A DNA stretch of 63,405 bases from Nostocales cyanobacterium. Lineage in GTDB: Bacteria; Cyanobacteriota; Cyanobacteriia; Cyanobacteriales; Nostocaceae. Under the pieces are notes generated by a model. It was not told the DNA's origin. It did no database searches and saw only the letters and a program-made list of their open reading frames with translations. The stretch lies in contig RDXV01000006.1 in the NCBI GenBank assembly GCA_004292695.1, forward strand, positions 1 through 63,405. Direction: 5' to 3'. Shown piece after piece: positions 36,551 through 59,668 of this stretch. The position numbers and the translations under genes are program-made. Each line of letters opens with the position of its first letter. The stretch's first letter is position 1.

Positions 36551-36589
36551 AGAACTATTGAGATAATAATTGCTGTACTTGCTCTCTTC

Positions 36590-36655
36590 AGATCCCCGAC
36601 TTCTATTTTTAATTATCGGTTTGATGAGAAGATTAATGTAAGAAGTCGGGGATCT
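36590..36655. repeat. REP-like hairpin copy 4 (downstream of RAYT)
   Basis: A 66-bp element with arms AGATCCCCGACTTCT and AGAAGTCGGGGATCT and a conserved centre containing AATTATCGGTTTGATG. It abuts both the end of CRISPR array 1 and the 3' end of the RAYT gene. Confidence 0.9.
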
Positions 36656-36657
36656 TT

Positions 36658-37230: not shown

Positions 37231-37269
37231 AATAAAAGTAGTAAGTGGTGATATGATTAATAATACCCC

Positions 37270-37335
37270 AGATCCCCGAATTCTATTTTTAATCATGGTT
37301 TTGATGAGAGGATTGGTTTAAGAAGTCGGGGATCT
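37270..37335. repeat. REP-like hairpin copy 5 (upstream of RAYT)
   Basis: A 66-bp element with arms AGATCCCCGAATTCT and AGAAGTCGGGGATCT (one mismatch) and the same centre as copies 4 and 6. Copies 5 and 6 form a tandem pair like bacterial BIMEs. Confidence 0.9.
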
Positions 37336-37358
37336 TTTTTCCCCTAAAAATAAGTATC

Positions 37359-37423
37359 AGATCCCCGACTTCTATTTTTAATTATCGGTTTTATGGAAAG
37401 TTGATATAAGAAGTCGGGGATCT
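37359..37423. repeat. REP-like hairpin copy 6
   Basis: A 65-bp element with perfect arms AGATCCCCGACTTCT and AGAAGTCGGGGATCT and centre AATTATCGGTTTTATGG. It lies between the RAYT gene and the 3' end of the kinase-WYL gene. Confidence 0.9.
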
Positions 37424-37434
37424 TTTTTCTCATT

Positions 37435-39850: not shown

Positions 39851-41473
39851 GTGAGTAAATTTACTGCTATCACCTTCGCACCCGTGCAAGGGTTTATTGA
39901 AAAATCCCGCAAGTTGCGTGATTTATATGGAGGTTCTTTAATTTTATCTTATTTGAGTCAACAAATTGTTAGTTATGTTCACAAAACAGAAGGGTTAACT
40001 TTAATTTCTCCTGCGCTTCCTAACACGCAAAAAGGAATGCCAAACCGGATTTTAATTAAAGGAGAAATGAGTAAAAAACAAGCAGAAGACATTATACTTT
40101 CTGAATGGAAAGAGATGTTAAAAGTTTGTCGAGTATGGATACAAGAAAACCTCCCAGAATTTGATTATCAATGGGAAAGGGAATGGAGTTTATGGGGTTG
40201 TCATACTTGGGAGATATTTCAAGGATGTGGTGATAGTATTCCTGATGCAATGGAGGATTTAGAAACTAAGAAATTATCCCGTGATTGGACTGCGGTAAAT
40301 TGGATTGGTGAAAGTTCTAGTTTAACTGGTACTGATGGTATTGCTTTTCCTGGTATGGGTGCGAAATCTCGTAATCCTAAAAAGATGGATTATAGTGAGG
40401 ATAAGAGAAACATTGAAAAATTCTATCAGCGATTAGCAGAAATTACTGAAAATAAAGATGAGGAAAATACAGAAGGAACATTTATTGCACTCAATGAAAA
40501 GTTGAGTATTCCTGAATTAGTAAAAAGGTTAATTACTTTACCAGAAATCGCAAATTTAATTAGTCAAGATAAACCTGAAGATCAGAAATTACAAAAAATC
40601 AAAGGTTTTCAAGAAATTGATAGAAAACCAGATCCTGACCAACAAATAAAAGGACAATGGACAGGGTGGTTTATGGGAGATGGTGACAAAGTTGGAGATT
40701 TTTTAAAAGAATTAGCAAAAAAAGATAATCAAGATGAAGCAGTTACAGCACTTGAAAATTTTAGTAACGCGATGCGAAATTGGGGTAAACAATTTGATGA
40801 TAGATTTAATTTAAAGAAAAAATTAGGCCGAGTTGTTTACGCCGGTGGTGATGATTTTTTAGGGATTATTTATAGTAATAATCCTAAAGAACCTATTCCA
40901 GCATTTGAAGCATATCAATGGTTATTGACTTTAAATGATACATGGAAAAAACACGGATATGACAAAGTAACTCTGAGTGTGGGTTTTGTGTGGGTTGCAG
41001 GTAGTGTACCTCAGCGAGATGTTTTACAACATTGTCGAGAAGCGGAAAAGGTAGCGAAATCTTTAGATAGAAATAGAGTTACTATTCGAGTGGTTTTTAA
41101 TAGTGGTCAATATGTCCAGTGGACTTGTCCCTGGGATTATTTGGATGTTTTGATGAAGTATCAAGATAGGGATGGTAAAACATTTACACAATGGAAAGAT
41201 AACGGAAGAAAGAAGGAAGATTTTCCTAACTGGGGTCATGTTTATAGTGATTTGGCTACGTTAAAAGCTCGTCATGCAATAAATTTGAATGTAACAAGAG
41301 ATAATGCTGATGAAATAATAGCATTAGAACTATTTGATATCTACTTTGACCAACAAAAAGAATATCTGGAAAATAATCAAGAAAAACTCGTTGGTAGTGC
41401 AGATAATTTAGAACTCATGAAATGGATTGATAGTTTAATTAATATAGGATGGTATCTATGTTCAAATATCTAA
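39851..41473 (+). CDS. cas10: Type III-B Cas10/Cmr2, HD-less, cyclase motif intact
   Basis: 540 residues from GTG at 39851, preceded by the ribosome-binding site AAGGAGA. The N-terminus (FAPVQGFIEKSRKLRDLYGGS) is already the first palm-like region of Cmr2; no HD nuclease domain precedes it. The palm has WFMGDGDKVGDFL near residue 278 and the cyclase motif in VYAGGDDFLGII near residue 336. It should make cyclic oligoadenylates when the complex binds target RNA but should not cut DNA. It is shorter than most Cas10 proteins because of the missing HD domain. Its 3' end overlaps cmr3, so the operon is translationally coupled. Confidence 0.92.
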   Translation: MSKFTAITFAPVQGFIEKSRKLRDLYGGSLILSYLSQQIVSYVHKTEGLTLISPALPNTQKGMPNRILIKGEMSKKQAEDIILSEWKEMLKVCRVWIQENLPEFDYQWEREWSLWGCHTWEIFQGCGDSIPDAMEDLETKKLSRDWTAVNWIGESSSLTGTDGIAFPGMGAKSRNPKKMDYSEDKRNIEKFYQRLAEITENKDEENTEGTFIALNEKLSIPELVKRLITLPEIANLISQDKPEDQKLQKIKGFQEIDRKPDPDQQIKGQWTGWFMGDGDKVGDFLKELAKKDNQDEAVTALENFSNAMRNWGKQFDDRFNLKKKLGRVVYAGGDDFLGIIYSNNPKEPIPAFEAYQWLLTLNDTWKKHGYDKVTLSVGFVWVAGSVPQRDVLQHCREAEKVAKSLDRNRVTIRVVFNSGQYVQWTCPWDYLDVLMKYQDRDGKTFTQWKDNGRKKEDFPNWGHVYSDLATLKARHAINLNVTRDNADEIIALELFDIYFDQQKEYLENNQEKLVGSADNLELMKWIDSLINIGWYLCSNI

Positions 41474-42462
41474 TTTGTATCAATCCTTTGGGGTTTATGT
41501 ATGGTAGTGCAGGGGCATTTTTATCACCAGAAAATTTAGTTGGACGTTCTGGTGCTAAATTTCCTCCTGAAGCTGCAACTTTATCAGGATTATTCTTTAG
41601 CGTTAACAAAGTTCAGGAACTATGGGAGCAAAAAGATTTAAGTAATGATTTATATGTTGCTGGTCCCTTTTGGGCAAAAAATGACAATCCAGAATATTTT
41701 TATGTACCAATTCCTTGGACGAAAATCATAGCTCAAAATGAATCTAGTGAATGGGAATTGAATAATCAAAAATGGCACTGTGGAAACTCAGAATTAAAAC
41801 CTGATTACCAATGGGAAAGAATCAACTTTTGGGACTATTCAGCAGAACAAATTCGCGGTAACGGTTATGCAGAAAAAGTACCTTGGCACTTTGTTTCTAT
41901 GTTACATCCTCATTTAAAAAATGATGAAAGATGTACTTTAAAAACTGACGATAATACAAAAGGAGGATTATTTCTAGAATATTCTGTACAACTAGATCCA
42001 GAATGTTGTTTAGTTTATCTATCTACCCATGCTTTACCTAATGGTTGGTATAAATTTGGAGGTGAAAATCATGTTGTAGAAATCAATAGTCTCAAGCTAG
42101 AAGATGATAGTCCAATTATAGAGCTTTTACGTCAACCAATAAAAGATAAATTTGCATTAATAACACCGGGAGTCTGGGGTTCAAATCGTATTTCTAAAAG
42201 GTGTCCAGAAAATGCCTTTTCCGCTAACCCTGACAATATCAAAATGTTGACAGATAAACCCGTTCCTTATCGTTTCCGTTCCCAAGGAACATTAGGAAGA
42301 GGACGTTACGCTGTACCTGCGGGGAGTGTTTACGTACTCGATGAACCCATTAATAAATCTTGGTGGGAATGGGACGAGAAATGGTTTCCCGATGAGGGTT
42401 ACAGTCTCAAAAAAGTCGGTTGTGGTTTGTGTTTACCAGTAAAAATTCAAGGAGTTAACTAA
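41458..42462 (+). CDS. cmr3: Type III-B CRISPR protein Cmr3
   Basis: 334 residues. MFKYLICINPLGFMYG is the first RAMP strand, and the glycine-rich loop LGRGRYAVPAGSVY near residue 280 is characteristic of Cmr3. Cmr3 holds the 5' handle of the crRNA next to Cas10. ATG at 41458 lies inside the end of cas10 (stop at 41473), so 16 bases overlap. An in-frame ATG nine bases earlier is less likely. Length is normal. Confidence 0.9.
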   Translation: MFKYLICINPLGFMYGSAGAFLSPENLVGRSGAKFPPEAATLSGLFFSVNKVQELWEQKDLSNDLYVAGPFWAKNDNPEYFYVPIPWTKIIAQNESSEWELNNQKWHCGNSELKPDYQWERINFWDYSAEQIRGNGYAEKVPWHFVSMLHPHLKNDERCTLKTDDNTKGGLFLEYSVQLDPECCLVYLSTHALPNGWYKFGGENHVVEINSLKLEDDSPIIELLRQPIKDKFALITPGVWGSNRISKRCPENAFSANPDNIKMLTDKPVPYRFRSQGTLGRGRYAVPAGSVYVLDEPINKSWWEWDEKWFPDEGYSLKKVGCGLCLPVKIQGVN

Positions 42463-42463
42463 A

Positions 42464-43315
42464 ATGTATAACAAAGCTTATGGAATTATTGAAACTTTAG
42501 CACCTCTCCATGTTGGTGCAACTGCTGGAGAAGAAAGCGGAAATTTAAACCTAATTTTTCGTGATCAATTTACCCAAACTGGTATCATTCCTGGTAGTTC
42601 TATTCGTGGTCGTTTACGTTCAGAAATGCGTAATGATCAAAGTGAAAATGACGCTAATTATTGGTATGGTAACGGTGCTGATGATGAAAAAAATAACGAA
42701 TCTATCGTTAAATTTGAATATGCTTCTATAGTTTGGATTCCTGTTTTTTGTCCTGGACAACCTATAGTATGGGTAACTTGTCACCGGTTATTAAAACGTT
42801 ATCAAAGAATTGCTGGTGATACTATTGTTAAAGTAGATGGACAAGATAAACCTCTCAAAGAAATCAAAATTCCCAATAAATATACAGGTTCAACTAACCT
42901 AAAAACTAAACCAGGGGTAGGAAATACCAGAACCATTTTCTTTAACTTGGGTTTTTTAGAAGTTCAAAGCAGCAAAGACTTATCACCTTGGTTTCCTGAC
43001 GGTGAACAACAACCATCAGTTATTGTTGATGATAGTGATATTGGGATGATTCATGATATGGCATTATATCGCCAAAGTCGTGTCCGTCTCAAATCAGATC
43101 AAAAAGTAGTTGATGGTGGCGGATTTTTCAACACTGAAGCATTACCCGAAGGAACTATTTTAGTATTTCCTATTGCTATCAGAGAGGATAAATCTGAACA
43201 AAATAATAGTAAAAAATGGCAACCTTTCAAAACCGGAGATACCGCAGATATTTATTTAGGTGGTTTAGAATCTATCGGTTTAGGTCATTGTGAATTATCT
43301 TTTAAAGGAGTGTAA
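42464..43315 (+). CDS. cmr4: Type III-B CRISPR backbone protein Cmr4 (Cas7 family)
   Basis: 283 residues. It opens AYGIIETLAPLHVGATAGEES and continues with IPGSSIRGRLRSEMR, the Cas7-type RNA-binding loop, and ends with a glycine-rich YLGGLESIGLGHCEL. Cmr4 forms the helical backbone that cuts target RNA every six bases. A candidate catalytic aspartate is in NLIFRDQFTQTG. It starts two bases after the cmr3 stop. Confidence 0.9.
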   Translation: MYNKAYGIIETLAPLHVGATAGEESGNLNLIFRDQFTQTGIIPGSSIRGRLRSEMRNDQSENDANYWYGNGADDEKNNESIVKFEYASIVWIPVFCPGQPIVWVTCHRLLKRYQRIAGDTIVKVDGQDKPLKEIKIPNKYTGSTNLKTKPGVGNTRTIFFNLGFLEVQSSKDLSPWFPDGEQQPSVIVDDSDIGMIHDMALYRQSRVRLKSDQKVVDGGGFFNTEALPEGTILVFPIAIREDKSEQNNSKKWQPFKTGDTADIYLGGLESIGLGHCELSFKGV

Positions 43316-43318
43316 AAA

Positions 43319-43744
43319 ATGAGTTGGAAATCCTATAATTTAGACCAAAAAGCACAAAAATTAGTCCTCATGTACCGGGATAAAAAAGGTGTAATTGGTC
43401 AATCTCATAAAATGAGAAGTACAGTAGCTTACGGTTTAGAAAGATTTTGGGGGGAACATTTACGACTGTTAGGTAAAAATAACAGTGATGAACAAGAAAA
43501 AGGTAAATATTGGCGGGAAACTTGGAAAACATTTGTAGAAATCATGAAGCAAGCGGGAATTAAATTACCTGAAGATCAAGTAGATGGAAATAATACCCGA
43601 CAAGTACAAGATTATGCAGCCAGATTATGGGAATTAGACATTGAAGATCAACGCATTTGTTTAGCGGTTTTAACTCAATTTTGTGACAGTTTGGTTTGGT
43701 GGACTCAACGTTATAAAAAGACAGGTGATAACGATGGCGAATAG
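43319..43744 (+). CDS. cmr5: Type III-B small subunit Cmr5 (Cas11)
   Basis: 141 residues, all-helical and charged. VAYGLERFWGEHLRLLG and CLAVLTQFCDSLVWWTQRYK are the two visible conserved helices. Cmr5 packs along the crRNA-target duplex. It begins four bases after cmr4 and its end overlaps the next gene by eleven bases. Confidence 0.85.
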   Translation: MSWKSYNLDQKAQKLVLMYRDKKGVIGQSHKMRSTVAYGLERFWGEHLRLLGKNNSDEQEKGKYWRETWKTFVEIMKQAGIKLPEDQVDGNNTRQVQDYAARLWELDIEDQRICLAVLTQFCDSLVWWTQRYKKTGDNDGE

Positions 43745-45353
43745 TAATGAAGTACCTTTAATGTTTCAAGCTCAAATTACTGGAAGGGGACAAATTCAAT
43801 ATATTAGAGAACCTGAACAAGCAGAAAGATGGGTTGATGAATGGTTAGAAGCTACCGCTATCAATGCACCTAATTTTAGTGATCATGTGAGAACTAAAGA
43901 ATATCAAATTAGTTGGCGGTTGTTAACTAATAGCGGTCAAGATGATGATTTTATCCGTCCGGTAATTGCTGCTAATGGGTTTCCTTATTATCCCGGTGCA
44001 AGTATGAAAGGGGCTTTTTTAAGACATTGTAACCCCCAACAAGCTGTTAGATATTGTGGATATCAAAATAACAGTGAAACTCAGCCGGGAATATTACGTT
44101 TTCATGGTGCATTTCCCCAAGATAGTGAATGGAAAGAAGAACCTTTAATTGATGTGGTTCACCCTCAAGAAAATTGGCAAGTTAAAAACAATGGTAGTCA
44201 TTCCGCTTTCTTGCAAATTTCTCTTTATGAACCGACTTTAGTATTCGGTATTTCCAGCACCATTGAATTAGAAGAAAGTGAATGGGAAACTATTTGGAGT
44301 ATTTGGGATAAAGCGATAGAAAGAGGTATTGGTTCTAGGGTAAGTGCGGGTTATGGTCAACCTATAAACCACCCAGAAACTAAGTTATTTTCTGTTACTT
44401 TAAAAGGACAAGGTTTAGCATCAAAATTAATCGGCACAGAAGACATTGCCGAATTTCGCCCCAATATGTTTAAAGCTACTTTACGGGGTCACACTTTGCG
44501 GTTATTCAGTGCTGTGACTGATGAGAAAACAGCAGAAGAATTAACTAAGGAACTGTGGGGAGGTTTTGCAGGTGATAAAGGTGCAATAGTGGGAGATTTG
44601 GGTATTGCTTTTGATGCTGAAAATTTGGTTATGGGTGAGTTTAAATACAATAACAATAAAATGGCTACCTATGACTTAAAAAAAGGCAATTTAACTATTC
44701 TCTGTATGAAAAATCGTTCAGAGGAATATAGAAAACAATTGCTAATTTTAGCTAAAGCAATTTTGAAATTTATCATGTTAATTGGTGGTTTTGGTAAATC
44801 ATCTCGTAGGGTAGATCATAGAATCTTTTTTCCTGAATATTTAGAACCAGGAAATAAACCTATGATTGGTTGTCATTGGGAATTTACCAAAGAATTAAAT
44901 CAATATTATTATCCTGTTGGTAAGATTGAAAATGTGACTAAAATTATTGATAGTATTAACAAAGCTGTCAAGAATTGGCTAGTTTTTAAAGGTAAATCTC
45001 AGAATAATCAAAGAATAAATTGGCGTGAATCTTTTCACCCTGAAAATGTCCAAATTTGGGGACGAATAGCAGAAGATGATGATGATAGTTTAGCTGTGCG
45101 TTGGTTTCATGGTAATTACAAAGGTAGTCAATCAATTAAACGTTCTAATTTGACTGGTGAAATGGGAAAAATTGGTAGAATTTACCACCGGATGTATCCC
45201 CATTATATTAAAAATAGAGAAGGGGAAATGAAGCGAAAAAGACCAGAATACATTGAATTATTAACTATCTTCCCTGATAAAAAAGATCAAACCACCAGAG
45301 AGTTTTTAGCTTTTTTACCTACAAGTGGTTTTCAAAAATTGTGGGGTGTTTAA
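43734..45353 (+). CDS. Cmr6-Cmr1 fusion RAMP protein
   Basis: 540 residues from ATG at 43734 (MANSNEVPLMFQAQ). The first half is Cmr6-like, with YYPGASMKGAFLRHC near residue 85 and IERGIGSRVSAGYG near residue 200. The second half, from about residue 225, is Cmr1-like, with FRPNMFKATLRGHTLRLF followed by a glycine-rich arginine loop IGGFGKSSRRVDHR near residue 353. No separate cmr1 or cmr6 gene exists in the operon, so one polypeptide probably caps the 3' end of the crRNA with both domains. Total length equals two RAMP proteins. The fusion is read in frame without repeats at the join. Confidence 0.78.
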   Translation: MANSNEVPLMFQAQITGRGQIQYIREPEQAERWVDEWLEATAINAPNFSDHVRTKEYQISWRLLTNSGQDDDFIRPVIAANGFPYYPGASMKGAFLRHCNPQQAVRYCGYQNNSETQPGILRFHGAFPQDSEWKEEPLIDVVHPQENWQVKNNGSHSAFLQISLYEPTLVFGISSTIELEESEWETIWSIWDKAIERGIGSRVSAGYGQPINHPETKLFSVTLKGQGLASKLIGTEDIAEFRPNMFKATLRGHTLRLFSAVTDEKTAEELTKELWGGFAGDKGAIVGDLGIAFDAENLVMGEFKYNNNKMATYDLKKGNLTILCMKNRSEEYRKQLLILAKAILKFIMLIGGFGKSSRRVDHRIFFPEYLEPGNKPMIGCHWEFTKELNQYYYPVGKIENVTKIIDSINKAVKNWLVFKGKSQNNQRINWRESFHPENVQIWGRIAEDDDDSLAVRWFHGNYKGSQSIKRSNLTGEMGKIGRIYHRMYPHYIKNREGEMKRKRPEYIELLTIFPDKKDQTTREFLAFLPTSGFQKLWGV

Positions 45354-45359
45354 GGAAAA

Positions 45360-45424
45360 AGATCCCCGACCTCTTTTTAAATCTAGTCAACCAACCGATA
45401 ATTAATCATAGAAGTCGGGGATCT
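45360..45424. repeat. REP-like hairpin copy 7 (inside the III-B operon)
   Basis: A 65-bp element with arms AGATCCCCGACCTCT and AGAAGTCGGGGATCT, in the opposite centre orientation to copies 4-6 (centre reads ACCGATAATTAATCAT). It separates the Cmr6-Cmr1 gene from the CARF-HEPN gene and may partly terminate the operon. Confidence 0.9.
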
Positions 45425-45476
45425 GGAACAACATTTTTATTCAATCTAATTCAATAAATTTTCAGGAGTTTTTAAA

Positions 45477-46892
45477 ATGAGTATTTGGATTGTAACAACC
45501 GGTAATAGTGATGTACAATTAAAGCATAATTATAATGCTACTAAATGGCAAAAATTTTATAGAGAGGTTAGAAGTGAATTATCTAATCATTTGTTTGAAC
45601 CATCTAGATCAAAAAATGCTGCTGCTAATGAACCTTATACTGTTCCTGCAAGAGTGATGGGTATGGTTTATAGTTCTCGATTAAATGACGAAATTGTTTT
45701 TAATGATTTACATTTTCCCTTGTTGGATACTTTTACTGATTTTTTGAAAAAATTAGATAAAAAAGAAAAACCTAATAAAATAATTGTAATTATAACAAAT
45801 CAAGAAAATGCTTTTGATGATGATGATAAGAAACATAATAAATGTCCTTATTGGCAAGATACCTGTAAACTGCAACCCATCTTAGAGAAGTATTTTCAAC
45901 AAAAATTTCCTCATTTTGAAACAGATAAAAATATTCACTATTTAGAATTATCACCTAAATCTAAATCAGAAGGTCTTGATAATTGGAATCAGTGTTTAAT
46001 TTTGGTTAACAAGTTATTTAAAGAAAAAATGCCTAACTTGGAAATCAGAGAATATACCAAAATTTTTGTTAGTCATCAAGCAGGTACTCCGGCTATTTCT
46101 TCCGCCGTTCAATTTACAAGTTTAGCTAATTTTGAGAAGCAAGTAAAATTTTTAGTTAGCAATGAATATGATCAGGGAAATGCAATCTCTATTCCTAGTT
46201 CTAGTTATTTACAAGGTATAAAATTACAAGAAGCTAAGGAATTATTAGATAGATATGATTACTTAGGAGTTGATAAAATATTTACAGAATTTTGGAAAAA
46301 TAACAAAGATAACTTAACAGAACCAGAACAGAAAATTAAAGATTTATTAGCAATAGCGATTCAATGGAATAATGCTAATTTTGATGATTTTGCAAAATCC
46401 AGAATTGCCATAAATGAAGATGCTAAAAAACGCACTCAACAATGGTGGTGGACTGGTTACGAAGCTGCTTATTTAGGGGTGATCAGATTCAGACAAGGTA
46501 ACTATGTGGAAGCATTGTTTCATAGTTTCCGTGCTGTTGAAGGCTTATTAAGATACTTGGATAAAAACAAATATGAACATAAAGGTATCCATGATTTAGT
46601 TGATATCGTTTTACCTAATTGGACATCTAGTGATGATATCAAAATGTTTAAGAATTTTACATCTAAGGAAAGAAATAATTTATTTCATAATTTGCGAGGA
46701 TTAGAAGAACAGGAGGTATTTACAGTATGGAAAACTAAAGATTATAATACATGGCAGAAACGAGTTTTAGGTTGTATTAATTTCATTTCTGATCAAAAAT
46801 TTACTAAGTTACAAGATTCTAGTCTCATGTCATCTGTACATGAAGAACTAACAGAAGCAATCAACAAATACGAATTACAAACATCTAGTTAA
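45477..46892 (+). CDS. CARF-HEPN ribonuclease, Csm6/Csx1-like
   Basis: 471 residues. The N-terminal domain has a Rossmann-like opening (MSIWIVTTGNSDVQL) and a second strand-loop IFVSHQAGTPAISSAVQF near residue 200 that fits the CARF ligand loop. The C-terminal helical domain has TGYEAAYLGVIRFRQGNYVEALF and the HEPN motif Rx4H in SKERNNLFHNLRG near residue 400. Proteins like this are activated by the cyclic oligoadenylates made by Cas10 and then cut RNA indiscriminately. It is preceded by its own AGGAG-type ribosome-binding site and lies directly after the Cmr operon. The exact Csm6/Csx subfamily cannot be set by eye. Confidence 0.78.
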   Translation: MSIWIVTTGNSDVQLKHNYNATKWQKFYREVRSELSNHLFEPSRSKNAAANEPYTVPARVMGMVYSSRLNDEIVFNDLHFPLLDTFTDFLKKLDKKEKPNKIIVIITNQENAFDDDDKKHNKCPYWQDTCKLQPILEKYFQQKFPHFETDKNIHYLELSPKSKSEGLDNWNQCLILVNKLFKEKMPNLEIREYTKIFVSHQAGTPAISSAVQFTSLANFEKQVKFLVSNEYDQGNAISIPSSSYLQGIKLQEAKELLDRYDYLGVDKIFTEFWKNNKDNLTEPEQKIKDLLAIAIQWNNANFDDFAKSRIAINEDAKKRTQQWWWTGYEAAYLGVIRFRQGNYVEALFHSFRAVEGLLRYLDKNKYEHKGIHDLVDIVLPNWTSSDDIKMFKNFTSKERNNLFHNLRGLEEQEVFTVWKTKDYNTWQKRVLGCINFISDQKFTKLQDSSLMSSVHEELTEAINKYELQTSS

Positions 46893-46901: not shown

Positions 46902-46967
46902 AGATCCCCGACTTCTAAATCTAACTATCAATTTACCAACAACATTAAAAACAGAAGTCGGGGATCT
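46902..46967. repeat. REP-like hairpin copy 8
   Basis: A 66-bp element with arms AGATCCCCGACTTCT and AGAAGTCGGGGATCT. It is directly after the CARF-HEPN stop codon, a plausible transcription end. Confidence 0.9.
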
Positions 46968-46986
46968 AAAAATCAAATGTCAAGCT

Positions 46987-49670: not shown

Positions 49671-50537
49671 TCAACTGTCACCTAAAATGTCATATTTTTG
49701 ACATTGTTCTATGAGTTTTTGTTTGATCAGCGATCGCACGTTTTCCGGTGAGACTACAATACAATCAGATGAGTATTGCATGATTTCCCGAATAAACCAG
49801 AATGTATTTGATACTCTCCTAATAACGCGCTTTACCTGTTGTTGATCGGTTATCCATTCCACAAGTTTATCTTCTGGTTTGGTTTGATAGGCAAAAGCTA
49901 AACCTTTGTATAGGTGCATTTCTACATCTATTTGATCTAATTGCGATCGCCAATAACCCGTAGTTTCCGTAACTGCTGCTTCGTTAATTCTGTCTAAACG
50001 AAAACACCAATTATGTTGTAATTCTGGCACATCGTAATTATCTGTTGTTTCTTCACACCAACAGTCAAGATATTGACGTTTTTCGTGAGGATTGATTTTG
50101 GCATAACGGACAGTAAAATTAAATACTCGTTCTGCTGCATCTTGATAGGAAAGCTGAAAGGGTTGTTCACGCAAGATATAGTGATCCACTTGTAACCGCC
50201 AAGATGGACGAGAGTTATTTAAAAACCCTTCTATCTCCTTACGTAAAGGTACGGATAATTCACTACGTTCTAGTAGCAAATTGGCGATAATTTCCGCTTG
50301 TTGATTTTGTCCGATGTCGGTTAATGCACCTATACAACGATGTAAGGCACGGATACGGTAATCTTGCCAGTCGTGATTTTTACCAACAATTAATTCCCGT
50401 TTGGCGATCGCTTTGATGAGTTTGGAGATATTGGGATCTTCTCCCCACATCATCCCAAATTCTAGGGCGATCGCTTCTAGTTCCGCTTTGTCGCGTTCTG
50501 ATACCGACAGGGTTATAGACTGACCTTTGCGACTCAT
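49671..50537 (-). CDS. WYL-type regulator of the type I-D locus
   Basis: 288 residues. The N-terminal part (SITLSVSERDKAELEAIALEFG) looks like a ribbon-helix-helix DNA-binding segment. The C-terminal part is WYL-like, with QLSYQDAAERVFNFTVRYAKI near residue 129 and a C-terminal KRVIRRVSNTFWFIREIMQYSSDCIVVSPENV. The gene is divergent from the I-D operon, as is the WYL repressor sll7009 of the Synechocystis type I-D locus. An inverted repeat centred on TGTCCGTA lies directly upstream of its start, suggesting autoregulation. Ligand and targets are not known from sequence. Confidence 0.75.
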   Translation of the reverse strand: MSRKGQSITLSVSERDKAELEAIALEFGMMWGEDPNISKLIKAIAKRELIVGKNHDWQDYRIRALHRCIGALTDIGQNQQAEIIANLLLERSELSVPLRKEIEGFLNNSRPSWRLQVDHYILREQPFQLSYQDAAERVFNFTVRYAKINPHEKRQYLDCWCEETTDNYDVPELQHNWCFRLDRINEAAVTETTGYWRSQLDQIDVEMHLYKGLAFAYQTKPEDKLVEWITDQQQVKRVIRRVSNTFWFIREIMQYSSDCIVVSPENVRSLIKQKLIEQCQKYDILGDS

Positions 50538-50690: not shown

Positions 50691-51350
<660 letters not shown>

Positions 51351-51379
51351 AATAAATCTGATATTTGGACGAAACTCAA

Positions 51380-51832
51380 ATGCAAAACAATACTCCCACA
51401 ATTACAGAACTTCATAAGTTATCTTCACAAATTTCTGAAAAAATACCTTACTTAAAAATGTTAGTTCTCTTTGGTTCTAGAGCAGCTGGTAACACCAAAG
51501 CAAATAGTGATTGGGATTTTGCAATTTTATGTGATGAAGAAAAATATAAATTATATGTTGAAGAATATCCATTAGCATCATTCGCAATAACTGGAATCTT
51601 GGGAGAAGTATTTAAAATTAATTCTGATAAAATTGATATTGTCCAACTTAATCATTGTTCCAAATTAATAGCCCATTTTATAGCACGTGATGGACAGGTA
51701 TTATACGAGCAAGAAACAGATGAATTTGACAATTTTCGAGTAAATTATTTAAAAAGTGAATCAGAGTTAAAAAAAATCAGTCAAGAAAACCGCCGAATTA
51801 TCGAAATAGCGTTAACCAAATGGGGAGTATAA
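51380..51832 (+). CDS. MNT-type nucleotidyltransferase (MntA-like antitoxin)
   Basis: About 150 residues from ATG at 51380; a TTG at 51365 would add five. The minimal nucleotidyltransferase motif is clear: VLFGSRAAGNTKANSDWDFA, i.e. GSRAAG followed by D-x-D. MntA proteins adenylylate and silence HEPN-type (HepT) toxins. No HepT-like gene is next to it; the nearest HEPN is the CARF-HEPN protein 4.5 kb away, and a link is speculation. It is 66 bp upstream of cas3 on the same strand. Confidence 0.8.
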   Translation: MQNNTPTITELHKLSSQISEKIPYLKMLVLFGSRAAGNTKANSDWDFAILCDEEKYKLYVEEYPLASFAITGILGEVFKINSDKIDIVQLNHCSKLIAHFIARDGQVLYEQETDEFDNFRVNYLKSESELKKISQENRRIIEIALTKWGV

Positions 51833-51897
51833 GTAATAATAAATAGCGACAATCAATTAACCATAGGTTCAAACAATTAACAAGAGTTATTAAGGGT

Positions 51898-53412
51898 ATG
51901 TCAGAAAATTACACTATTCAACTCAAACCTGTTTATTCGCAAACTGTCCCCACACCTGATGGGGTAAAATTACCAGATGAATTTAATCTTGTTTGGCATC
52001 AAGTTGAAACATTAAAAGCTTTACAAAATCCAGATATTGATGTAGTAATTGATGTTGCAATGACGGGTGATGGCAAAACTTTAGTTGCCTATTTACAATC
52101 TTTGCAAGGAGACACACGTGAAGGATTTTGTTATACAATTGCACTCTATCCAACTAATGAACTGGCGCGTGATCAAGAAACACAAGTTAACAAATATATT
52201 GAACAATTCCAGCCAAATAATGAACCCCGTATTTCAAGGCTAAGTGGAGCAGAATTAGAAATTTATGCTGAAAGTGAAGGAATTAAAAAATGGGAAGCAA
52301 TCGCTACTCGCATTCAGGAATCTGAAATTATCCAAACTAATCCTGATATTTTTCACTATCTTCATCAACACGCCTACCTAACACCTAAAGATAGTCCTAA
52401 CAAATTATGGAGTCCTCTTGATACCAAATTTGATTTATTTATCTTCGATGAATTTCATGTTTTCGCTGCTCCACAAATTGCCAGCGTTATTAATACAATG
52501 CTATTGATGCGTCATACTAATCGGCGTAAAAAGTTCCTATTTCTTTCTGCTACACCGGATGAACAACTAATTGAACTTTTGGAAAAAGCTGGATTTAAAC
52601 CTACAGTTATTGATCCTTGTGTAAAAAATAAATATCAGTTTCCAGATAGTTTAGATCAGATCCAAAAATTACAAGAAGATGGATGGAGACAAGTATCAAG
52701 ACAAATTAATTTGATGTTTATTGAATTAGAACCTACTTACAAAGCTTGTGAAACTTGGCTTTGGGATAACCGCCATATTATTTCAGATCATTTTCAAAAA
52801 TATCCCAATAGTAAAGGTGCAATTATTCTTAACTCTATTGCAGCAGTCAAGCGTCTCACTCCATTATTTAGAGATTTTTTGCAGCCCTTTAAAAGAGTTG
52901 AAGAAAATACAAGTTTAACAGGTAAGACGGATAAAGAAAAATCTCTAAGTGCTGATTTAGTGTTGGGAACAAGCACAATTGATGTAGGTGTTGATTTTAA
53001 AATTAATTTCCTCATATTTGAATCAGCAGATGCCGGAAGCTTTATTCAAAGATTAGGTAGGTTAGGAAGACATGATGGCTATGACAAAGATGGCAATAAA
53101 ATTAGTTTTGATACATTTACTGCTTATGCTTTAACACCTAAGTTTTTAATAGAAAAACTATTCAAGGGAGATAAGCCACCATTAGAATATAACGGCATTT
53201 ATGATCGTCCTTATTTCCATAACCAAATTCGAGATAAATATCGTCAGATTAATAATTTTCGAGCCTATTATCGAAGATGGGCAGGTGTGCAATCAGTTCT
53301 ACTGAGTAGCAGCCAAGGATTAAATCATAAAACAATTAGATCAGAATATGTAGCTAGTCGGGAAGCATTTACAAAAGATTGTCAAAAGGTATTTGAAACT
53401 AATTTAGAGTAA
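51898..53412 (+). CDS. cas3: Type I-D CRISPR helicase Cas3', probably C-terminally truncated
   Basis: 504 residues. Superfamily 2 helicase motifs are present: the Walker A-like DVAMTGDGKTLVAYL near residue 55, LFIFDEFHVF (motif II, DEFH) near 180, FLFLSATPDE (motif III), and the C-terminal helicase motifs GTSTIDVGVDFKINFLIFES and FIQRLGRLGRHDG. There is no HD domain, as expected for I-D where Cas10d supplies it. After the helicase core the protein runs only to ...FTKDCQKVFETNLE. From memory, I-D Cas3' proteins continue for a further 100-200 residues, so it may be truncated at the same break that removed cas10d. Confidence 0.85.
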   Translation: MSENYTIQLKPVYSQTVPTPDGVKLPDEFNLVWHQVETLKALQNPDIDVVIDVAMTGDGKTLVAYLQSLQGDTREGFCYTIALYPTNELARDQETQVNKYIEQFQPNNEPRISRLSGAELEIYAESEGIKKWEAIATRIQESEIIQTNPDIFHYLHQHAYLTPKDSPNKLWSPLDTKFDLFIFDEFHVFAAPQIASVINTMLLMRHTNRRKKFLFLSATPDEQLIELLEKAGFKPTVIDPCVKNKYQFPDSLDQIQKLQEDGWRQVSRQINLMFIELEPTYKACETWLWDNRHIISDHFQKYPNSKGAIILNSIAAVKRLTPLFRDFLQPFKRVEENTSLTGKTDKEKSLSADLVLGTSTIDVGVDFKINFLIFESADAGSFIQRLGRLGRHDGYDKDGNKISFDTFTAYALTPKFLIEKLFKGDKPPLEYNGIYDRPYFHNQIRDKYRQINNFRAYYRRWAGVQSVLLSSSQGLNHKTIRSEYVASREAFTKDCQKVFETNLE

Positions 53413-53441
53413 AAGACAAAAACACCATTAGTCGTCTTTCC

Positions 53442-54314
53442 ATGTTCAAGCGTAAACAGTCCACACCAGAAAGATTAGTAGGACGGGAATTATTACGTAA
53501 ATATGAATTTATGACAGCAGAAGATTGTGAATATAACGTTAAATTTGCAATGGATAATCCTGATTGTATTATTTATGGTTTTGCTATTGGTGATTCTGGT
53601 TCAGAAAAATCCAAAGTTGTGGTAGATACTGCATTTTCTATTACCGCATTTGATGAATCTCATGAAACATTTACTCTCAATGCACCCTATGAAAATGGGA
53701 CAATGGCTGCAAAAGGAGAAAAGAAATCAGATGGTAAGTTAGATGGTGAAATAGGTACAGTGACGGCTAGAATTAACCAACAAGACCACATTAGACCACA
53801 GGTATTTTTTCCTAGCATTGTTACCTTAAAAGACCCCACAGAAGCGAGTTTTTTGTATGTCTTGAATAACATCCTCAGAACTCGTCATTATGGCGCACAA
53901 ACAACCCGCACAGGTAGAGTGAGAAATGAATTAATTGGTGTTGTATTTGCTGATGGAGAAATTACCAGTAACCTGCGTTGGACTCAAGCAATATATGACC
54001 AAATGAAAGCTAATAATACACTCAAATCACCCGATCCTTTAGATGAAGATGATGTAATTGCTGCTGCTAAAACTGCCATTGAAAATTTAATGGCTGATGA
54101 ATTTATTGTGCATACAGACTTTATTGGTGATGATTTTGTACCTTTACTAAATGAAGTTAAAAATCTCACAAATAACGAAGCAGGAATTAAATCGCTCCTA
54201 CAGCAAGCTAATGATGAAGCTAAGGCTTATGCTAAAAAGCATATTAAAGGTAAGTCTGAAGAAGCAAAAGCCGCAAAATCAAAAGCAGGTAAAAAATCTG
54301 TAGCAACGGAGTAA
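53442..54314 (+). CDS. csc2: Type I-D Csc2 (Cas7d), probably missing its N-terminus
   Basis: 290 residues. MFKRKQSTPERLVGRELLRK, CIIYGFAIGDSGSEKSKVVV, ATFS-like DTAFSITAFDESHETFTLN and the RHYGAQTTRTGRVRNELIG segment are typical Csc2 sequence, and the Lys-rich tail (AKSKAGKKS) is common. The N-terminal strand that should begin a Cas7 fold is absent. The frame upstream of the ATG stays open for at least 13 codons (NTISRLS just before), which reads like internal protein sequence. This supports a deletion joint between cas3 and the middle of csc2. It would probably not build a normal crRNA backbone. Confidence 0.85.
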   Translation: MFKRKQSTPERLVGRELLRKYEFMTAEDCEYNVKFAMDNPDCIIYGFAIGDSGSEKSKVVVDTAFSITAFDESHETFTLNAPYENGTMAAKGEKKSDGKLDGEIGTVTARINQQDHIRPQVFFPSIVTLKDPTEASFLYVLNNILRTRHYGAQTTRTGRVRNELIGVVFADGEITSNLRWTQAIYDQMKANNTLKSPDPLDEDDVIAAAKTAIENLMADEFIVHTDFIGDDFVPLLNEVKNLTNNEAGIKSLLQQANDEAKAYAKKHIKGKSEEAKAAKSKAGKKSVATE

Positions 54315-54319
54315 CAAAA

Positions 54320-55027
54320 ATGGTGTTTATTTACCGTTGTCAATTAGAACTACACGACAGCCTCTATTTTGCCACCCGTGAAATTGGCAGACTATACGAA
54401 ACAGAGCCAATAATTCATAATTACGCCCTTTGTTATTCTCTGGGTTTAATTGATAGTGAAATTTATTCAACAACCGTTGCTGAAGAAAATTCCTATCGCT
54501 ATTTCTGCCCCGAACAAGTGCCAAAATATGAGGAACATTTAACCCCTTTAAATCAACAAGGAATCTATGTAACTCCTGCTCGTTCTTTGAATCATGCAGC
54601 TATTCTCAATACATGGAAATATGCCAATAATAACTACCATGTAGAAATGGAGAAAACGCAAAAAAATATTCCCAGTTTTGGACGAGCTAAGGAAATTGCA
54701 CCAGAAAGTCAATTTGAGTTTTTTCTCATCTCTGAAAAATCAATCAAATTACCTAAATGGATTCGTTTAGGAAAATGGATGAGTAAAGCAGAAATTAAGG
54801 CAGATCCATTACCACAAGCGAAAACGAAAACTGATTTATTTACCTGCACTCATCCTTTAAATCCATTGGATGTCATGTTTACTAATCAAGTCATTAGTTA
54901 TGATGTGGTAAATATGCCACCAGTTAGCCTAATTCAAAATGTACAAATGAGGGGGGAATATTACTATTTTGATGATGTCAAAAATGTAAAACTTCCCACA
55001 CAAATGCAGTACCGATTTAAGGCTTAA
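54320..55027 (+). CDS. csc1: Type I-D Csc1 (Cas5d)
   Basis: 235 residues, seemingly complete: FIYRCQLELHDSLYFATREIGRL is the first RAMP strand, TEPIIHNYALCYSLGLI follows, and the C-terminal beta region ends QNVQMRGEYYYFDDVKNVKL. Csc1 caps the crRNA 5' handle in the type I-D complex. It follows csc2 by five bases. A hairpin of CCCCCC-TTAAAAA-GGGGGG (55046-55064) lies after it. Confidence 0.9.
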   Translation: MVFIYRCQLELHDSLYFATREIGRLYETEPIIHNYALCYSLGLIDSEIYSTTVAEENSYRYFCPEQVPKYEEHLTPLNQQGIYVTPARSLNHAAILNTWKYANNNYHVEMEKTQKNIPSFGRAKEIAPESQFEFFLISEKSIKLPKWIRLGKWMSKAEIKADPLPQAKTKTDLFTCTHPLNPLDVMFTNQVISYDVVNMPPVSLIQNVQMRGEYYYFDDVKNVKLPTQMQYRFKA

Positions 55028-55045
55028 AATTTTAGATCCCCCCAA

Positions 55046-55064
55046 CCCCCCTTAAAAAGGGGGG
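55046..55064. repeat. C-run/G-run hairpin after csc1
   Basis: CCCCCCTTAAAAAGGGGGG forms a 6-bp GC stem with a seven-base loop, a dispersed cyanobacterial hairpin. It may act as a partial terminator or RNA-stability element in the operon. Confidence 0.65.
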
Positions 55065-55092
55065 CTTTAAGAAATTCCTAACCATCAAAAAT

Positions 55093-55911
55093 ATGCCCCA
55101 CAGTCTCATCCTCAATATCACCCCCCAAACCCCTATCTACCCCAATTTCCTTACCGGTAGACACTACCACGCCTTATTCCTGAATTTAGTAAGTTCTGTA
55201 GATAGAAAATTAGGCGACTACCTCCACGAATCAAACGCAGATAAAGCCTTTACCCTTTCACCCTTACAAATACAAAACAGAAATAAAACCCAATTTAACA
55301 CCCTACAATATAATCATAAAAACCCCATTCCCGCAGGTTCTCCTTGTTGGTGGCGCATATCTTTATTAGATGATAAATTATTTAGTCAACTTACACCTTT
55401 ATGGTTAAATCTTAATCCCCAACATCCTTGGCATTTAGGATCAGCTAATTTATTTATTACCAGCATTCAAGGTACACCCCAATCTTCTCAACCTTGGGCT
55501 AATGTGTGTACATATCCCTTATTATATCAACAAGCTAGTGAAACAGAAAGAATTATTAATTTCATCTTTTCCACACCTGTAGCTTTTCGCCAAGGTGGTT
55601 TTGATAATGTTTTACCTACAAGAGAATCGGTTTTTAATAGTTTGTTAAATCGCTGGAATAAATATAGCGAAATTGAATTAAATAATATACCCTTAGAATC
55701 AATTTATCCTAGTGCTTTTAATATCAGAACTGAAGTTATTAGCAACTATGAAAATAAATTTATCGGTTGTTTGGGTGAAATTAGTTATCGCATTTTAGGG
55801 AATGTGGAAGCAATAAGAATTAAACAAATTAATGCTTTAGCTGATTTTGCTTTATATACAGGTGTTGGGAGAAAAACAACAATGGGAATGGGTATGATCA
55901 GAAGAAAGTAG
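55093..55911 (+). CDS. cas6: CRISPR pre-crRNA endoribonuclease Cas6
   Basis: 272 residues. It opens PHSLILNITPQTPIYPNFLTGR and has a glycine-rich C-terminal loop in YTGVGRKTTMGMGMIRR, characteristic of Cas6 RAMP proteins. It cleaves each repeat to leave an 8-nt 5' handle. It is the only Cas6 seen in the window and is close to the I-D repeats. Array 1 has no Cas6 of its own, so this enzyme or RNase E must process it if it is expressed. Confidence 0.88.
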   Translation: MPHSLILNITPQTPIYPNFLTGRHYHALFLNLVSSVDRKLGDYLHESNADKAFTLSPLQIQNRNKTQFNTLQYNHKNPIPAGSPCWWRISLLDDKLFSQLTPLWLNLNPQHPWHLGSANLFITSIQGTPQSSQPWANVCTYPLLYQQASETERIINFIFSTPVAFRQGGFDNVLPTRESVFNSLLNRWNKYSEIELNNIPLESIYPSAFNIRTEVISNYENKFIGCLGEISYRILGNVEAIRIKQINALADFALYTGVGRKTTMGMGMIRRK

Positions 55912-55933
55912 GTTGGGTTGACGTAAAGGAAAA

Positions 55934-55998
55934 AGATCCCCGACTTCTTTTTTCATCTTGAAAATAAATTATAAATTAACTTCAGAAGTCGGGGATCT
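55934..55998. repeat. REP-like hairpin copy 9
   Basis: A 65-bp element with arms AGATCCCCGACTTCT and AGAAGTCGGGGATCT, between cas6 and cas4. Confidence 0.9.
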
Positions 55999-56027
55999 GA
56001 ATTAACTAACAAATACACTCATAATCT

Positions 56028-56636
56028 ATGCTATCCTCTATCATCTCTCCAGAAGACTACGTTAACATCGCTTCATTAAATCAATATTCCTACTGTCCCC
56101 ATCGCTGTTGGTTGATTCATTGTGCTGGGGAATTTACAGATAATCAATACACTATTGAAGGCACAAGTTTACATGAACGAGTTCACACAATGAGCGCAGA
56201 AAATCGAGATGAAATTTACCAAATTCGGGCTATTTATCTCAAATCTGATCAATATCAATTAATTGGTAAATCGGATTTAATTGAGTTTGAAAATGGCGAT
56301 TATTACCCAATTGAATATAAACGCGGACGCAAGGGAGAATGGGATAATGATGAATTACAAGTTTGCGCTCAGGCTTTGTGTTTGGAGGAAATGACAGGTA
56401 AAAAAATCAATTCTGGTTATATTTATTATGCCCAAACACATCAACGTCAATTAGTAGAAATTACTGAAGAATTACGAGCAAATACTATTGCCACAATTGA
56501 AGCTGTAAAAATGTTGTTGTTTACAGGTGCAATGCCAAAAGCTGTAAAAACAAAACGCTGTGATGGTTGTAGTTTATTTGCTCGATGTTTACCCCAAGCT
56601 GTTGATAAGGTTGAGCGTTATCAAGAAGCAAATTGA
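56028..56636 (+). CDS. cas4: CRISPR-associated exonuclease Cas4
   Basis: 202 residues. It has the RecB-like core with PIEYKRGRKGEWDNDELQVC (PD-(D/E)XK: E-x-K then Q) and iron-sulfur cysteines, one N-terminal in YSYCPHRCW and three C-terminal in RCDGCSLFARC. Cas4 trims prespacers and chooses the PAM side for Cas1-Cas2. It belongs with the downstream cas1-cas2. It is separated from cas6 and cas1 by REP-like copies 9 and 10. Confidence 0.93.
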   Translation: MLSSIISPEDYVNIASLNQYSYCPHRCWLIHCAGEFTDNQYTIEGTSLHERVHTMSAENRDEIYQIRAIYLKSDQYQLIGKSDLIEFENGDYYPIEYKRGRKGEWDNDELQVCAQALCLEEMTGKKINSGYIYYAQTHQRQLVEITEELRANTIATIEAVKMLLFTGAMPKAVKTKRCDGCSLFARCLPQAVDKVERYQEAN

Positions 56637-56642
56637 AAACCC

Positions 56643-56708
56643 AGATCCCCGACTTCTTTTTTAAATTTTGTCAATAAATAATAAATTAATGACAGAAGTC
56701 GGGGATCT
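56643..56708. repeat. REP-like hairpin copy 10
   Basis: A 66-bp element with arms AGATCCCCGACTTCT and AGAAGTCGGGGATCT, between cas4 and cas1. Confidence 0.9.
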
Positions 56709-56734
56709 TATTCACCTATTTAGAGGATTTTATC

Positions 56735-57736
56735 ATGGGTACTCTTTACATTTCACAAGCTGATTCTTTTATCGGTAAGGTTGATGAAAGAATTAATGTT
56801 AAGTTTGAGAAGAAAATCATTATGGATATACCATTTATTAAGTTAGATGGTGTGGTGGTTTTGGGTCGTTCTACGGTTTCCCCTGCGGTGGTTTCTGAGT
56901 TGATGAATCGTCATATTCCTCTATCTTTTATTGATGAAAGAGGTCATTATTTAGGACAGTTACAACCACAAATGTCTGGTAATATTTTTGTGAGAAAAGC
57001 ACAATGGCAAGCGGCAGGAAATACTCCTCAAGCTGTTCATGTAGTGCAAGGTTTTGTTAGGGGTAAGTTAAAAAATTATCGGCAAATTTTAACCAGACAT
57101 CAACGAAAATATGAGGTTGATTTATCGGCTGATGTGACTCGTTTAGAAAATGTGATTGCAGCGATTGATAAAACTGAAAATATTGATTCTTTACGGGGTT
57201 TAGAAGGTGCTGGTAGTGCGGTTTATTTTGGTTGTTTTAATCGCCTAATTCGTAATTCTAATTTTGAATTTACTAAGCGTGTCCGTCGTCCACCTACTGA
57301 TCCGCTAAATTCTTTGTTGAGTTTTGGTTATTCTTTGTTACGTCATGATATCCAAGCTGCGGTAAATATTGTGGGGTTTGATCCTTTTTTGGGATATCTC
57401 CATTATGATCGTTATAATCGTCCTTCTTTAGCTTTGGATTTAATGGAGGAATTTAGACCTTTAGTAGTTGATACAATGGTTTTATCTATTTTGAATAATC
57501 AATTATTAAAACCAGAGGATTTTATTACTGAACCTTTGAGTAATGCTGTTTCTTTGACTCCTGAAGGGAGAAAGATTTTTCTCACTCATTATGAGAAGAA
57601 AAAACAATCAGATTTTAAACATCCGGTGATGGAAAAAAAGTGTACTTATCGAGAGTCTTTTGAGTTGCAAGCTCGGTTGTTATCTAAGTATTTAATGGGT
57701 ATAACTGAAAAGTATACTCCTTTATTTTTGAAGTAG
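56735..57736 (+). CDS. cas1: CRISPR-associated integrase Cas1 (I-D locus)
   Basis: 333 residues. Catalytic Glu in SLRGLEGAGSAVYFG near residue 159, His in GYLHYDRYNRPSLALDL near 227, and the acidic EEFRPLVVDTM segment. It opens GTLYISQADSFIGKVD. All active-site motifs are intact. It differs strongly from the Cas1 at 34297 and fits the Cas4-Cas1-Cas2 order of type I-D. Confidence 0.95.
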   Translation: MGTLYISQADSFIGKVDERINVKFEKKIIMDIPFIKLDGVVVLGRSTVSPAVVSELMNRHIPLSFIDERGHYLGQLQPQMSGNIFVRKAQWQAAGNTPQAVHVVQGFVRGKLKNYRQILTRHQRKYEVDLSADVTRLENVIAAIDKTENIDSLRGLEGAGSAVYFGCFNRLIRNSNFEFTKRVRRPPTDPLNSLLSFGYSLLRHDIQAAVNIVGFDPFLGYLHYDRYNRPSLALDLMEEFRPLVVDTMVLSILNNQLLKPEDFITEPLSNAVSLTPEGRKIFLTHYEKKKQSDFKHPVMEKKCTYRESFELQARLLSKYLMGITEKYTPLFLK

Positions 57737-57817
57737 TTATTTAGGTAACAGTTTTTAGGGAGATGGGGAGAATAACCAATAACTAATGACTAACGACTAA
57801 TGACTAATGACTAATTT

Positions 57818-58090
57818 ATGAATGTTGTTGTTTCTTACGATATTTCTGAGGATAAACGAAGGACTAAAATTCACAACATCCTCAAGTCTTACGGCCAATG
57901 GGTGCAGTATAGTATTTTTGAGTGTGAGTTGACTGATACTGAGTATGCTAAGTTGCGATCGCGTCTTAATAAACTCATTAATTCTGATACTGATAGCATC
58001 CGTTTTTATTTCCTCTGTGCTTGCTGTCACGGTAAGATAGAAAGAATCGGTGGTCAACAACCCCGCGATCATACTGTTTTCTTCGCTTGA
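57818..58090 (+). CDS. cas2: CRISPR-associated endonuclease Cas2 (I-D locus)
   Basis: 90 residues. NVVVSYDISEDKRRTKIHNIL (metal Asp) and WVQYSIFECELTDTEYAKL are diagnostic, and the Cys-containing C-terminus FYFLCACCHGKIERIGGQQ follows. It starts after a run of ACTAATG tandem repeats, so the start codon is close to repeat DNA. The array-2 leader begins directly after its stop codon. Confidence 0.93.
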   Translation: MNVVVSYDISEDKRRTKIHNILKSYGQWVQYSIFECELTDTEYAKLRSRLNKLINSDTDSIRFYFLCACCHGKIERIGGQQPRDHTVFFA

Positions 58091-58317: not shown

Positions 58318-59609
58318 GTTGAAATTTCATTTACTCCCTATTAGGGATTGAAACACAATTTAAAAAGCCAACAGATTGAGCAGCATTCTGCAAAGTTGAA
58401 ATTTCATTTACTCCCTATTAGGGATTGAAACGAGACTTCCCTTGCAATAATTCATCAAATATCTGAATCGTTGAAATTTCATTTACTCCCTATTAGGGAT
58501 TGAAACCGGATTTCTTGGAATTGCTCTTTTCTATCAAATAGTTGAAATTTCATTTACTCCCTATTAGGGATTGAAACCGGTTTCTTCTTCTCCTTCTAAA
58601 ACAATTCGTATCGTTGAAATTTCATTTACTCCCTATTAGGGATTGAAACATTTTTGCTATCTCCTGATGATAATTCTCAGGAGAGTTGAAATTTCATTTA
58701 CTCCCTATTAGGGATTGAAACATTTTGCTACTTTTTATGGATTATATTTAGCTAATGTTGAAATTTCATTTACTCCCTATTAGGGATTGAAACGAAATAG
58801 CTGCTGGAAGTGCTTCTACTGCTATTAAGTTGAAATTTCATTTACTCCCTATTAGGGATTGAAACATTTGGGCTTGACTATCACAATTACTATTTGATAA
58901 AAGTTGAAATTTCATTTACTCCCTATTAGGGATTGAAACACCTATAGGGGTCGCCTCCAATTTATCGTGGCTGGGGGGTTGAAATTTCATTTACTCCCTA
59001 TTAGGGATTGAAACTTCAAGTCGGTACTGTTGGATTTGGGGCCCTTACGGTTGAAATTTCATTTACTCCCTATTAGGGATTGAAACTTGCAGTTACAGTC
59101 TTACTGTGTTAGTTTTACTTTGTTGAAATTTCATTTACTCCCTATTAGGGATTGAAACGGTATTGGGTCTGGGGGAGGAAGTACAGGAGTAGGTGTTGGT
59201 GTTGAAATTTCATTTACTCCCTATTAGGGATTGAAACATTTGTCAAGCACTTATGATAGATATCAATTTTATGTAGTTGAAATTTCATTTACTCCCTATT
59301 AGGGATTGAAACCGACTTTAAAGGGCAAAGAAGAAAATTGGTAGAGCTAGTTGAAATTTCATTTACTCCCTATTAGGGATTGAAACGTATTTGGTGCGCG
59401 TACACCTAGCGCAAGCGCGGGTTGAAATTTCATTTACTCCCTATTAGGGATTGAAACGGCTGTGGCAGGGCTGAGGTTTGCGATATTCGTTATCCAGAAA
59501 GTTGAAATTTCATTTACTCCCTATTAGGGATTGAAACAGATGGTGACAGATTCTTGTATCTAAAAACATCATGAGTTGAAATTTCATTTACTCCCTATTA
59601 GGGATTGAA
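58318..59609 (+). CRISPR. CRISPR array 2: 18 repeats of 37 bp, 17 spacers
   Basis: The repeat begins GTTGAAATTTCATTTACTCC and ends CTATTAGGGATTGAAAC, with a small TCCCTA-T-TAGGGA palindrome. Repeat starts are 58318, 58395, 58470, 58541, 58613, 58685, 58757, 58829, 58903, 58978, 59050, 59122, 59201, 59276, 59350, 59421, 59501 and 59575. The first 17 copies are identical; the last ends ...GATTGAAGGG and is degenerate, the usual trailer end. Spacers are 34-43 bp. The GAAAC end matches that of array 1, giving handles ATTGAAAC versus ATGGAAAC. Confidence 0.97.
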
Positions 59610-59668
59610 GGGAAAATATAACCCTTCCCACCTCATTTAAAAATTGCATGAGGTAGGCGATCGCCAAC

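Follow-up and report, generated by a model that had tools for sequence, protein, structure and literature searches.

In type I-D systems, both the HD nuclease and PAM reading reside in Cas10d, and the displaced strand is seen to be cleaved only when Cas3′ is present, according to the accessible part of PMC9123187; the accessible part of PMC10212523 describes Cas11d as being translated from within cas10d. Defective CRISPR-Cas loci are already known as a class (for example, in the excerpt of PMC7242445). Here we describe a type I-D operon from G000, a cyanobacterial draft assembly of 5.39 Mb in 324 contigs whose completeness is estimated at 99.97%. The window, meaning the whole stretch of DNA that we analyzed (63,405 nucleotides), is the entire contig C230 of this genome. 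We conclude with high confidence that the locus is best explained as a type I-D operon cut by one illegitimate deletion, probably a recent one.

At 51898-58090, the genes follow the type I-D order cas3′, csc2, csc1, cas6, cas4, cas1, and cas2, and a CRISPR array comes next (Table 1). The set comprises a stand-alone Cas3′ helicase belonging to the I-D clade (TIGR03158 is complete, though 227 of 732 residues are gone from the C terminus), the backbone protein Csc2 (Cas7d), which matches its family above the cut-off with its N terminus absent, a Csc1 (Cas5d) matching TIGR03159 over its full length, and Cas6, Cas4, Cas1d, and Cas2 together with the array. What we did not find, in the locus or in genome searches, is cas10d (csc3) with its HD nuclease. 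None of the seven I-D genes contains an internal stop. A first reading made from the sequence only had called cas6, cas4, cas1, and cas2 intact, and each is indeed complete by profile match. The 37-nt I-D repeat has no further occurrence in G000 when up to 3 mismatches are allowed. Two more arrays in this genome have repeats resembling part of it, one of 8 repeats on contig C173 (L114, 7968-8504) and one of 2 repeats on contig C1 (L115, 7704-7811); around the former, no cas genes were recognized by eye among the surrounding ORFs.

Table 1. Coordinates of the I-D remnant, its surroundings, and features of related loci (positions refer to the window unless a locus is named)
Feature	Position	Strand	Remarks
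Second cas1	34297-35286	-	Near second array
Second CRISPR array	36003-36550		8 repeats, different 36-nt sequence
III-B module: cas10/cmr2, cmr3, cmr4, cmr5, cmr6, CARF-HEPN (Csx1-like)	39851-46892	+	PADLOC matches
Possible WYL/WCX-type regulator gene	49671-50537	-	Upstream of operon; weak Pfam WCX match (E 3.5e-4), under curated cut-off
cas3′, 3′-truncated	51898-53412	+	504 aa; helicase core kept, TIGR03158 1-357 of 357
Deletion joint	53407		cas3′ match ends and csc2 match begins relative to G064; ~5.1 kb absent
csc2 (cas7d), 5′-truncated	53442-54314	+	Codons 1-53 gone; first usual start is former M65
csc1 (cas5d), intact	54320-55027	+	TIGR03159 1-225 of 225
cas6, intact	55093-55911	+	Sole TIGR01877 match in G000
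cas4, intact	56028-56636	+	TIGR00372 2-180 of 180
cas1d, intact	56735-57736	+	TIGR04093 2-334 of 334, above cut-off
cas2, intact	57818-58090	+	PF09827 1-73 of 74
I-D CRISPR array	58318-59611	+	17 spacers; 37-nt repeats, 17 of them identical and the last one degenerate
AGATCCCCGACTTCT...AGAAGTCGGGGATCT elements	35314-35383, 36589-36658, 37269-37427, 45352-45432, 46944-46970, 55926-56006, 56636-56716
MNT-like/HepT-like gene sites elsewhere	L111 4894-5807; L014 5504-6396; L015 4097-4513
Divergent I-D module	L109 (G001), L111 (G032), L112 (G027), L110 (G092), L062		Replaces canonical module

The possible regulator gene upstream of the operon shares 86.7% DNA identity with a gene upstream of cas3′ in L107, the locus of the closest intact relative described below. 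Shortly upstream of the operon lies a gene fusing DUF433 to a YhcG-type PDDEXK nuclease (50703-51350), which has no match at the corresponding place in G064. The window also holds an MNT-like nucleotidyltransferase gene (51365-51832) with no HepT gene adjoining; MNT-like nucleotidyltransferase and HepT-like genes stand within or beside several I-D operons, often directly before cas10d. Short elements with the pattern AGATCCCCGACTTCT...AGAAGTCGGGGATCT, resembling small palindromic or mobile elements, are repeated in intergenic positions across the window.

The closest intact relative that we found is on contig C23 of genome G064 (L107). Two blocks of the window match it, 51866-53413 at 90.0% DNA identity and 53407-54248 at 88.0%; they lie about 5.1 kb apart in G064 and meet at base 53407 in the window. 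This base corresponds to positions 4990 and 10082 of L107 as turned, so 5,092 bp are gone relative to G064. When the bases are set side by side, the cas3′ match runs up to 53407 and the csc2 match runs from 53407, with one base shared. The G064 segment holds a long open cas3′ (742 codons from the first start), cas10d (1159 codons), and csc2 (346 codons). Relative to it, the window lacks 227 of 732 residues at the Cas3′ C terminus, the whole of cas10d, and codons 1-53 of the 341 in csc2; essential effector genes have thus been lost compared with homologous intact loci, and the breakpoint is mapped. The earlier suggestion that a single deletion took the Cas3′ C terminus, cas10d, and the Csc2 N terminus fits these data, since both blocks matching G064 meet at 53407, and the alignment supports one clean deletion as accounting for all three losses. 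A DNA query spanning the joint matches 154 of 217 family genomes; among the matches listed, only that of G000 itself runs through the joint.

Aligned with complete I-D loci, both flanking proteins proved truncated. The Cas3′ of Anabaena sp. 90 has 725 aa, and window Cas3′ aligns with its residues 1-498, the match ending at 53409. Window Cas3′ also covers 2-478 of 685 positions of the PADLOC Cas3d profile PDLC02028, and its last residue aligns with residue 505 of the G064 protein. The protein therefore ends shortly past the helicase core, as had been proposed from the sequence. The same reading had remarked on the lack of an HD domain in Cas3′, which is correct as an observation; it does not stand as a sign of damage, because an HD-less Cas3′ is normal in type I-D, and the real loss is the conserved C-terminal part. 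In an alignment of related proteins (without L088, whose translation has two stops), this part has many nearly invariant positions. For folding, we built alignments from 28 and 24 sequences of related loci, also leaving L024 out of that for Cas3′ because of undetermined residues. In the AlphaFold model of a full-length Cas3′ relative (mean pLDDT, 81), the cut falls near the end of helix 482-500 and the start of the next helix, 504-522, ahead of the C-terminal part, and the lost segment is predicted to comprise a helix and a C-terminal domain of mixed alpha/beta type. The full-length model structurally matches helicases, mainly over residues 1-611. A PDB search gave no more than a weak Cas3 match (E 8e-4).

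Window Csc2 aligns from residue 54 of the 347-residue Csc2 of Anabaena sp. 90, beginning at 53409, and it covers 63-304 of 305 positions of the PADLOC Cas7d profile PDLC02046 and 55-297 of 298 positions of Pfam Csc2. Upstream of the ATG at 53442, the frame had been described as remaining open. This holds for 13 codons and no further, back to a TAA at 53400, and these codons include no ATG, GTG, or TTG, so the ATG is the first usual csc2 start and corresponds to former residue 65. The proposed loss of the Csc2 N terminus is thus borne out. The lost start is predicted to include one strand, in a structure model whose mean pLDDT of 46 makes it a hint only.

How unusual this is can be judged from related loci. 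A Csc2 search of named genomes gave 138 relatives, of which 80 were kept, a set thus chosen by Csc2. In all 80, Csc2 begins at residue 3 or before, while full Cas3′ is spanned in 67 and full cas10d in 72, these figures being spans of tblastn matches with reading frames unchecked. Among the eight loci without full cas10d, six run into a contig end (one, L097, has only 647 bases upstream of csc2) and two, L033 (Aphanizomenon flos-aquae FACHB-1287) and L062 (Phormidium sp. FACHB-1136), have a second, divergent I-D effector module and a left-over csc2-csc1 pair; L062 retains short pieces matching cas3′ and cas10d. The window, unlike L033 and L062, has no such second module. Most of the 13 loci without full Cas3′ begin at a contig end, the exceptions being L033, L062, L048, and L095. 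In L095 (Hydrocoleum sp. CS-953, 4006-8628), the cas10d and csc2 matches come in several partly repeated pieces, which suggests partial duplication or assembly trouble.

Across the 217 family genomes, 179 have a Csc2 match and 161 a match to the Cas10d model TIGR03174. We opened four discordant or weakly matching genomes, G001, G032, G092, and G027. All four carry a divergent Cas10d of a type already in PADLOC, and for these genomes we rejected the idea of a widespread class having csc2 without csc3. The divergent I-D module has a Cas10d of ~897 aa, a Csc2 37% identical to that of the window, and a Cas3′ of ~773 aa. In L110/L033 and L062, a canonical csc2-csc1 pair remains beside it, as though a module exchange were under way.

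The existence of this divergent form bears on whether a second cas10d elsewhere in G000 could restore the I-D system. In favor of such a copy, TIGR03174 misses or scarcely detects the divergent I-D Cas10d of the sister genome G001 and others. Between cas3′ and csc2 of the window there is no cas10d, as first noted, and TIGR03174, which matches in 161 family genomes in the same search, has no match in G000. A canonical Cas10d protein query also found nothing in G000 (a search without its own positive control), and a divergent Cas10d query matched G001, G032, and G092, with none in G000 or G064. A second Cas10d would, moreover, leave Csc2 truncated, and G000 has one csc2 match only. After the family-model, canonical-protein, and variant-protein searches, we rejected this reading, to which we give next to no chance. 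A misassembly or chimera at 53407, with the strain's operon in fact complete, is also unlikely, if somewhat less so. G000 is a draft in many contigs, which leaves room for such an error; compared with G064, however, the two sides of the joint have just one base in common, an overlap too small for homology-based joining by an assembler, and neither cas10d nor the missing DNA segment has a match on any other contig of this nearly complete assembly (the segment search again being without its own positive control). The deletion is possibly present in only some copies of the chromosome. As to how it arose, we rejected recombination between direct repeats: the BLAST hits overlap by seven bases because of where the alignments end, and one base is truly shared relative to G064. 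The deletion looks illegitimate because there is no longer direct repeat at its ends, a judgment made against a relative that is about 10% divergent. The spacer searches gave no support to self-targeting as the reason for the loss. Searched against G000, the array matched itself, two other CRISPR-repeat places, and one 23-base stretch at 91%, and the spacers gave one 17-base hit against 116 sequences with their own places in the two arrays left out.

In our reading, the I-D operon lost about 5.1 kb in one illegitimate deletion, probably recent. Loss of cas10d should mean no PAM recognition, no HD nuclease, and no Cas11d small subunit, and with a Csc2 lacking its conserved chain start and a Cas3′ lacking its C-terminal part, the I-D Cascade would be unable to nick or degrade DNA. 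From published I-D biology, we infer that interference is abolished, because Cas10d and Cas11d are gone and Csc2 and Cas3′ are truncated. Spacer capture by Cas4-Cas1-Cas2 and crRNA cutting by Cas6 should remain possible, because these four proteins are complete by profile.

The locus appears to be composite. Its left flank (an aminotransferase gene) and cas6-cas4-cas1-cas2 resemble G001 and G032, and cas3′-csc2-csc1 resemble G064, which belongs to another genus. Judged by these likenesses, the I-D locus is a mosaic, and its effector part was probably exchanged prior to the deletion.

We then considered the age of the deletion. Compared with G064, the cas3′ remnant has a dN/dS of 0.11 and the csc2 remnant one of 0.08. 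With cas3′ and csc2 pooled and L108 as the only outgroup (of 11 tried), the window branch carries amino-acid-changing and silent changes in the ratio 17:66, against 17:54 for the G064 branch (Fisher p 0.70). A Poisson estimate, which assumes that constraint ended with the deletion and uses parsimony with one outgroup of the 11, makes an unconstrained stretch longer than about 3% of the window branch unlikely. The deletion looks young because the cas3′ and csc2 pieces have no stops and, with outgroup L108, no excess of amino acid changes. Undecayed remnants are also expected under continued use, which counts against reading the deletion as inactivating; hence, either the deletion is probably young relative to the G064 split or the remnants are still in use. 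With several outgroups, amino acid changes in csc1 are relatively more numerous on the window branch than on that of G064 (23:27 versus 2:9 with L028; 6:10 versus 2:11 with L108), and cas4, cas1, and cas2 also have more on the window branch with some outgroups. The csc1 excess could be early decay or a product of mosaic history. Because of the mosaic history of these genes, we did not read the excess in csc1, cas4, cas1, and cas2 as decay.

Continued use could take two forms. The truncated Csc2, Csc1, Cas6, and helicase-only Cas3′ might form a new minimal effector without a large subunit, in the manner of type IV. All four frames are open, and the cas3′ and csc2 pieces give no sign of relaxed constraint with outgroup L108. 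Against this, the Csc2 start lost here is kept in all 80 related loci and holds a predicted strand (in the low-confidence model), Cas3′ is cut ahead of its conserved C-terminal part, csc1 has the excess of amino acid changes just described, and among the places listed for the 217 family genomes, the joint occurs in no other genome; we regard a minimal effector as highly improbable. Alternatively, the remnant may serve a neighboring system with guides, though we find this doubtful. A III-B Cmr module lies 5 kb upstream, and in a working hybrid the I-D Cas4-Cas1-Cas2 would write spacers and Cas6 would make crRNAs for Cmr2-Cmr6 and the CARF-HEPN nuclease to use. The one Cas6 of family TIGR01877 in G000, the only family searched, is that of the I-D operon, and the I-D array has 17 identical repeats. 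The final eight bases of the I-D and second-array repeats, both on the + strand, differ at one position. GAAAC ends are common among cyanobacterial repeats, which we counted against a hybrid. There is a precedent in Marinomonas, where III-B uses I-F crRNAs (cited in the accessible part of PMC10212523). The III-B module, however, has its own array and cas1 nearby, and scanning the cores of 5 of the 17 spacers against IMG/VR turned up no exact protospacer. Matches in a phage collection were all weak or of repeat type, the best being to Nostoc phage YongM (E 8e-4).

The event is of an ordinary kind, one inactivated CRISPR locus in one genome, and it leaves the understanding of CRISPR unchanged. 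It provides a natural, mapped, and apparently young type I-D effector knock-out that has kept its adaptation and crRNA-processing genes, with a III-B Cmr module adjoining. With this strain, one could ask if spacer acquisition goes on in the absence of I-D interference and if I-D guides are usable by III-B. Automatic annotation may label the operon type I-D even though interference is most likely impossible. We found no account of this deletion locus in the accessible parts of PMC9123187, PMC10212523, PMC12669027, PMC4428289, and PMC11903412 or in the literature listings searched.

Among known systems, the nearest in arrangement are G064, Anabaena sp. 90 (pANA02), and Dolichospermum sp. UHCC 0315A (pUHCC0315a), which have csc2, csc1, cas6, cas4, cas1, and cas2 in the same order as the window. 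The G064 Cas3′ and Csc2 share 91% identity with the window proteins. All three retain cas10d and a full csc2, whereas the window does not. cas3′ is full in G064 and Anabaena sp. 90; in UHCC 0315A, the stretch fetched has a cas3′ match to residues 287-725 only and no annotated cas3′. At the corresponding site, the sister genome G001 and G032 carry the variant I-D module, with the same aminotransferase-side flank as the window and similar cas6, cas4, cas1, and cas2. Their effector set is unlike that of the window, with an 897-aa Cas10d (PDLC02021), a Csc2 37% identical to the window piece, and a Cas3′ of another clade. In another host group, Bacillus cereus group loci have also been judged defective in CRISPR-Cas, by gene content, in the accessible part of PMC7242445; here, in contrast, it is a type I-D operon that carries the defect, and the deletion has been mapped.
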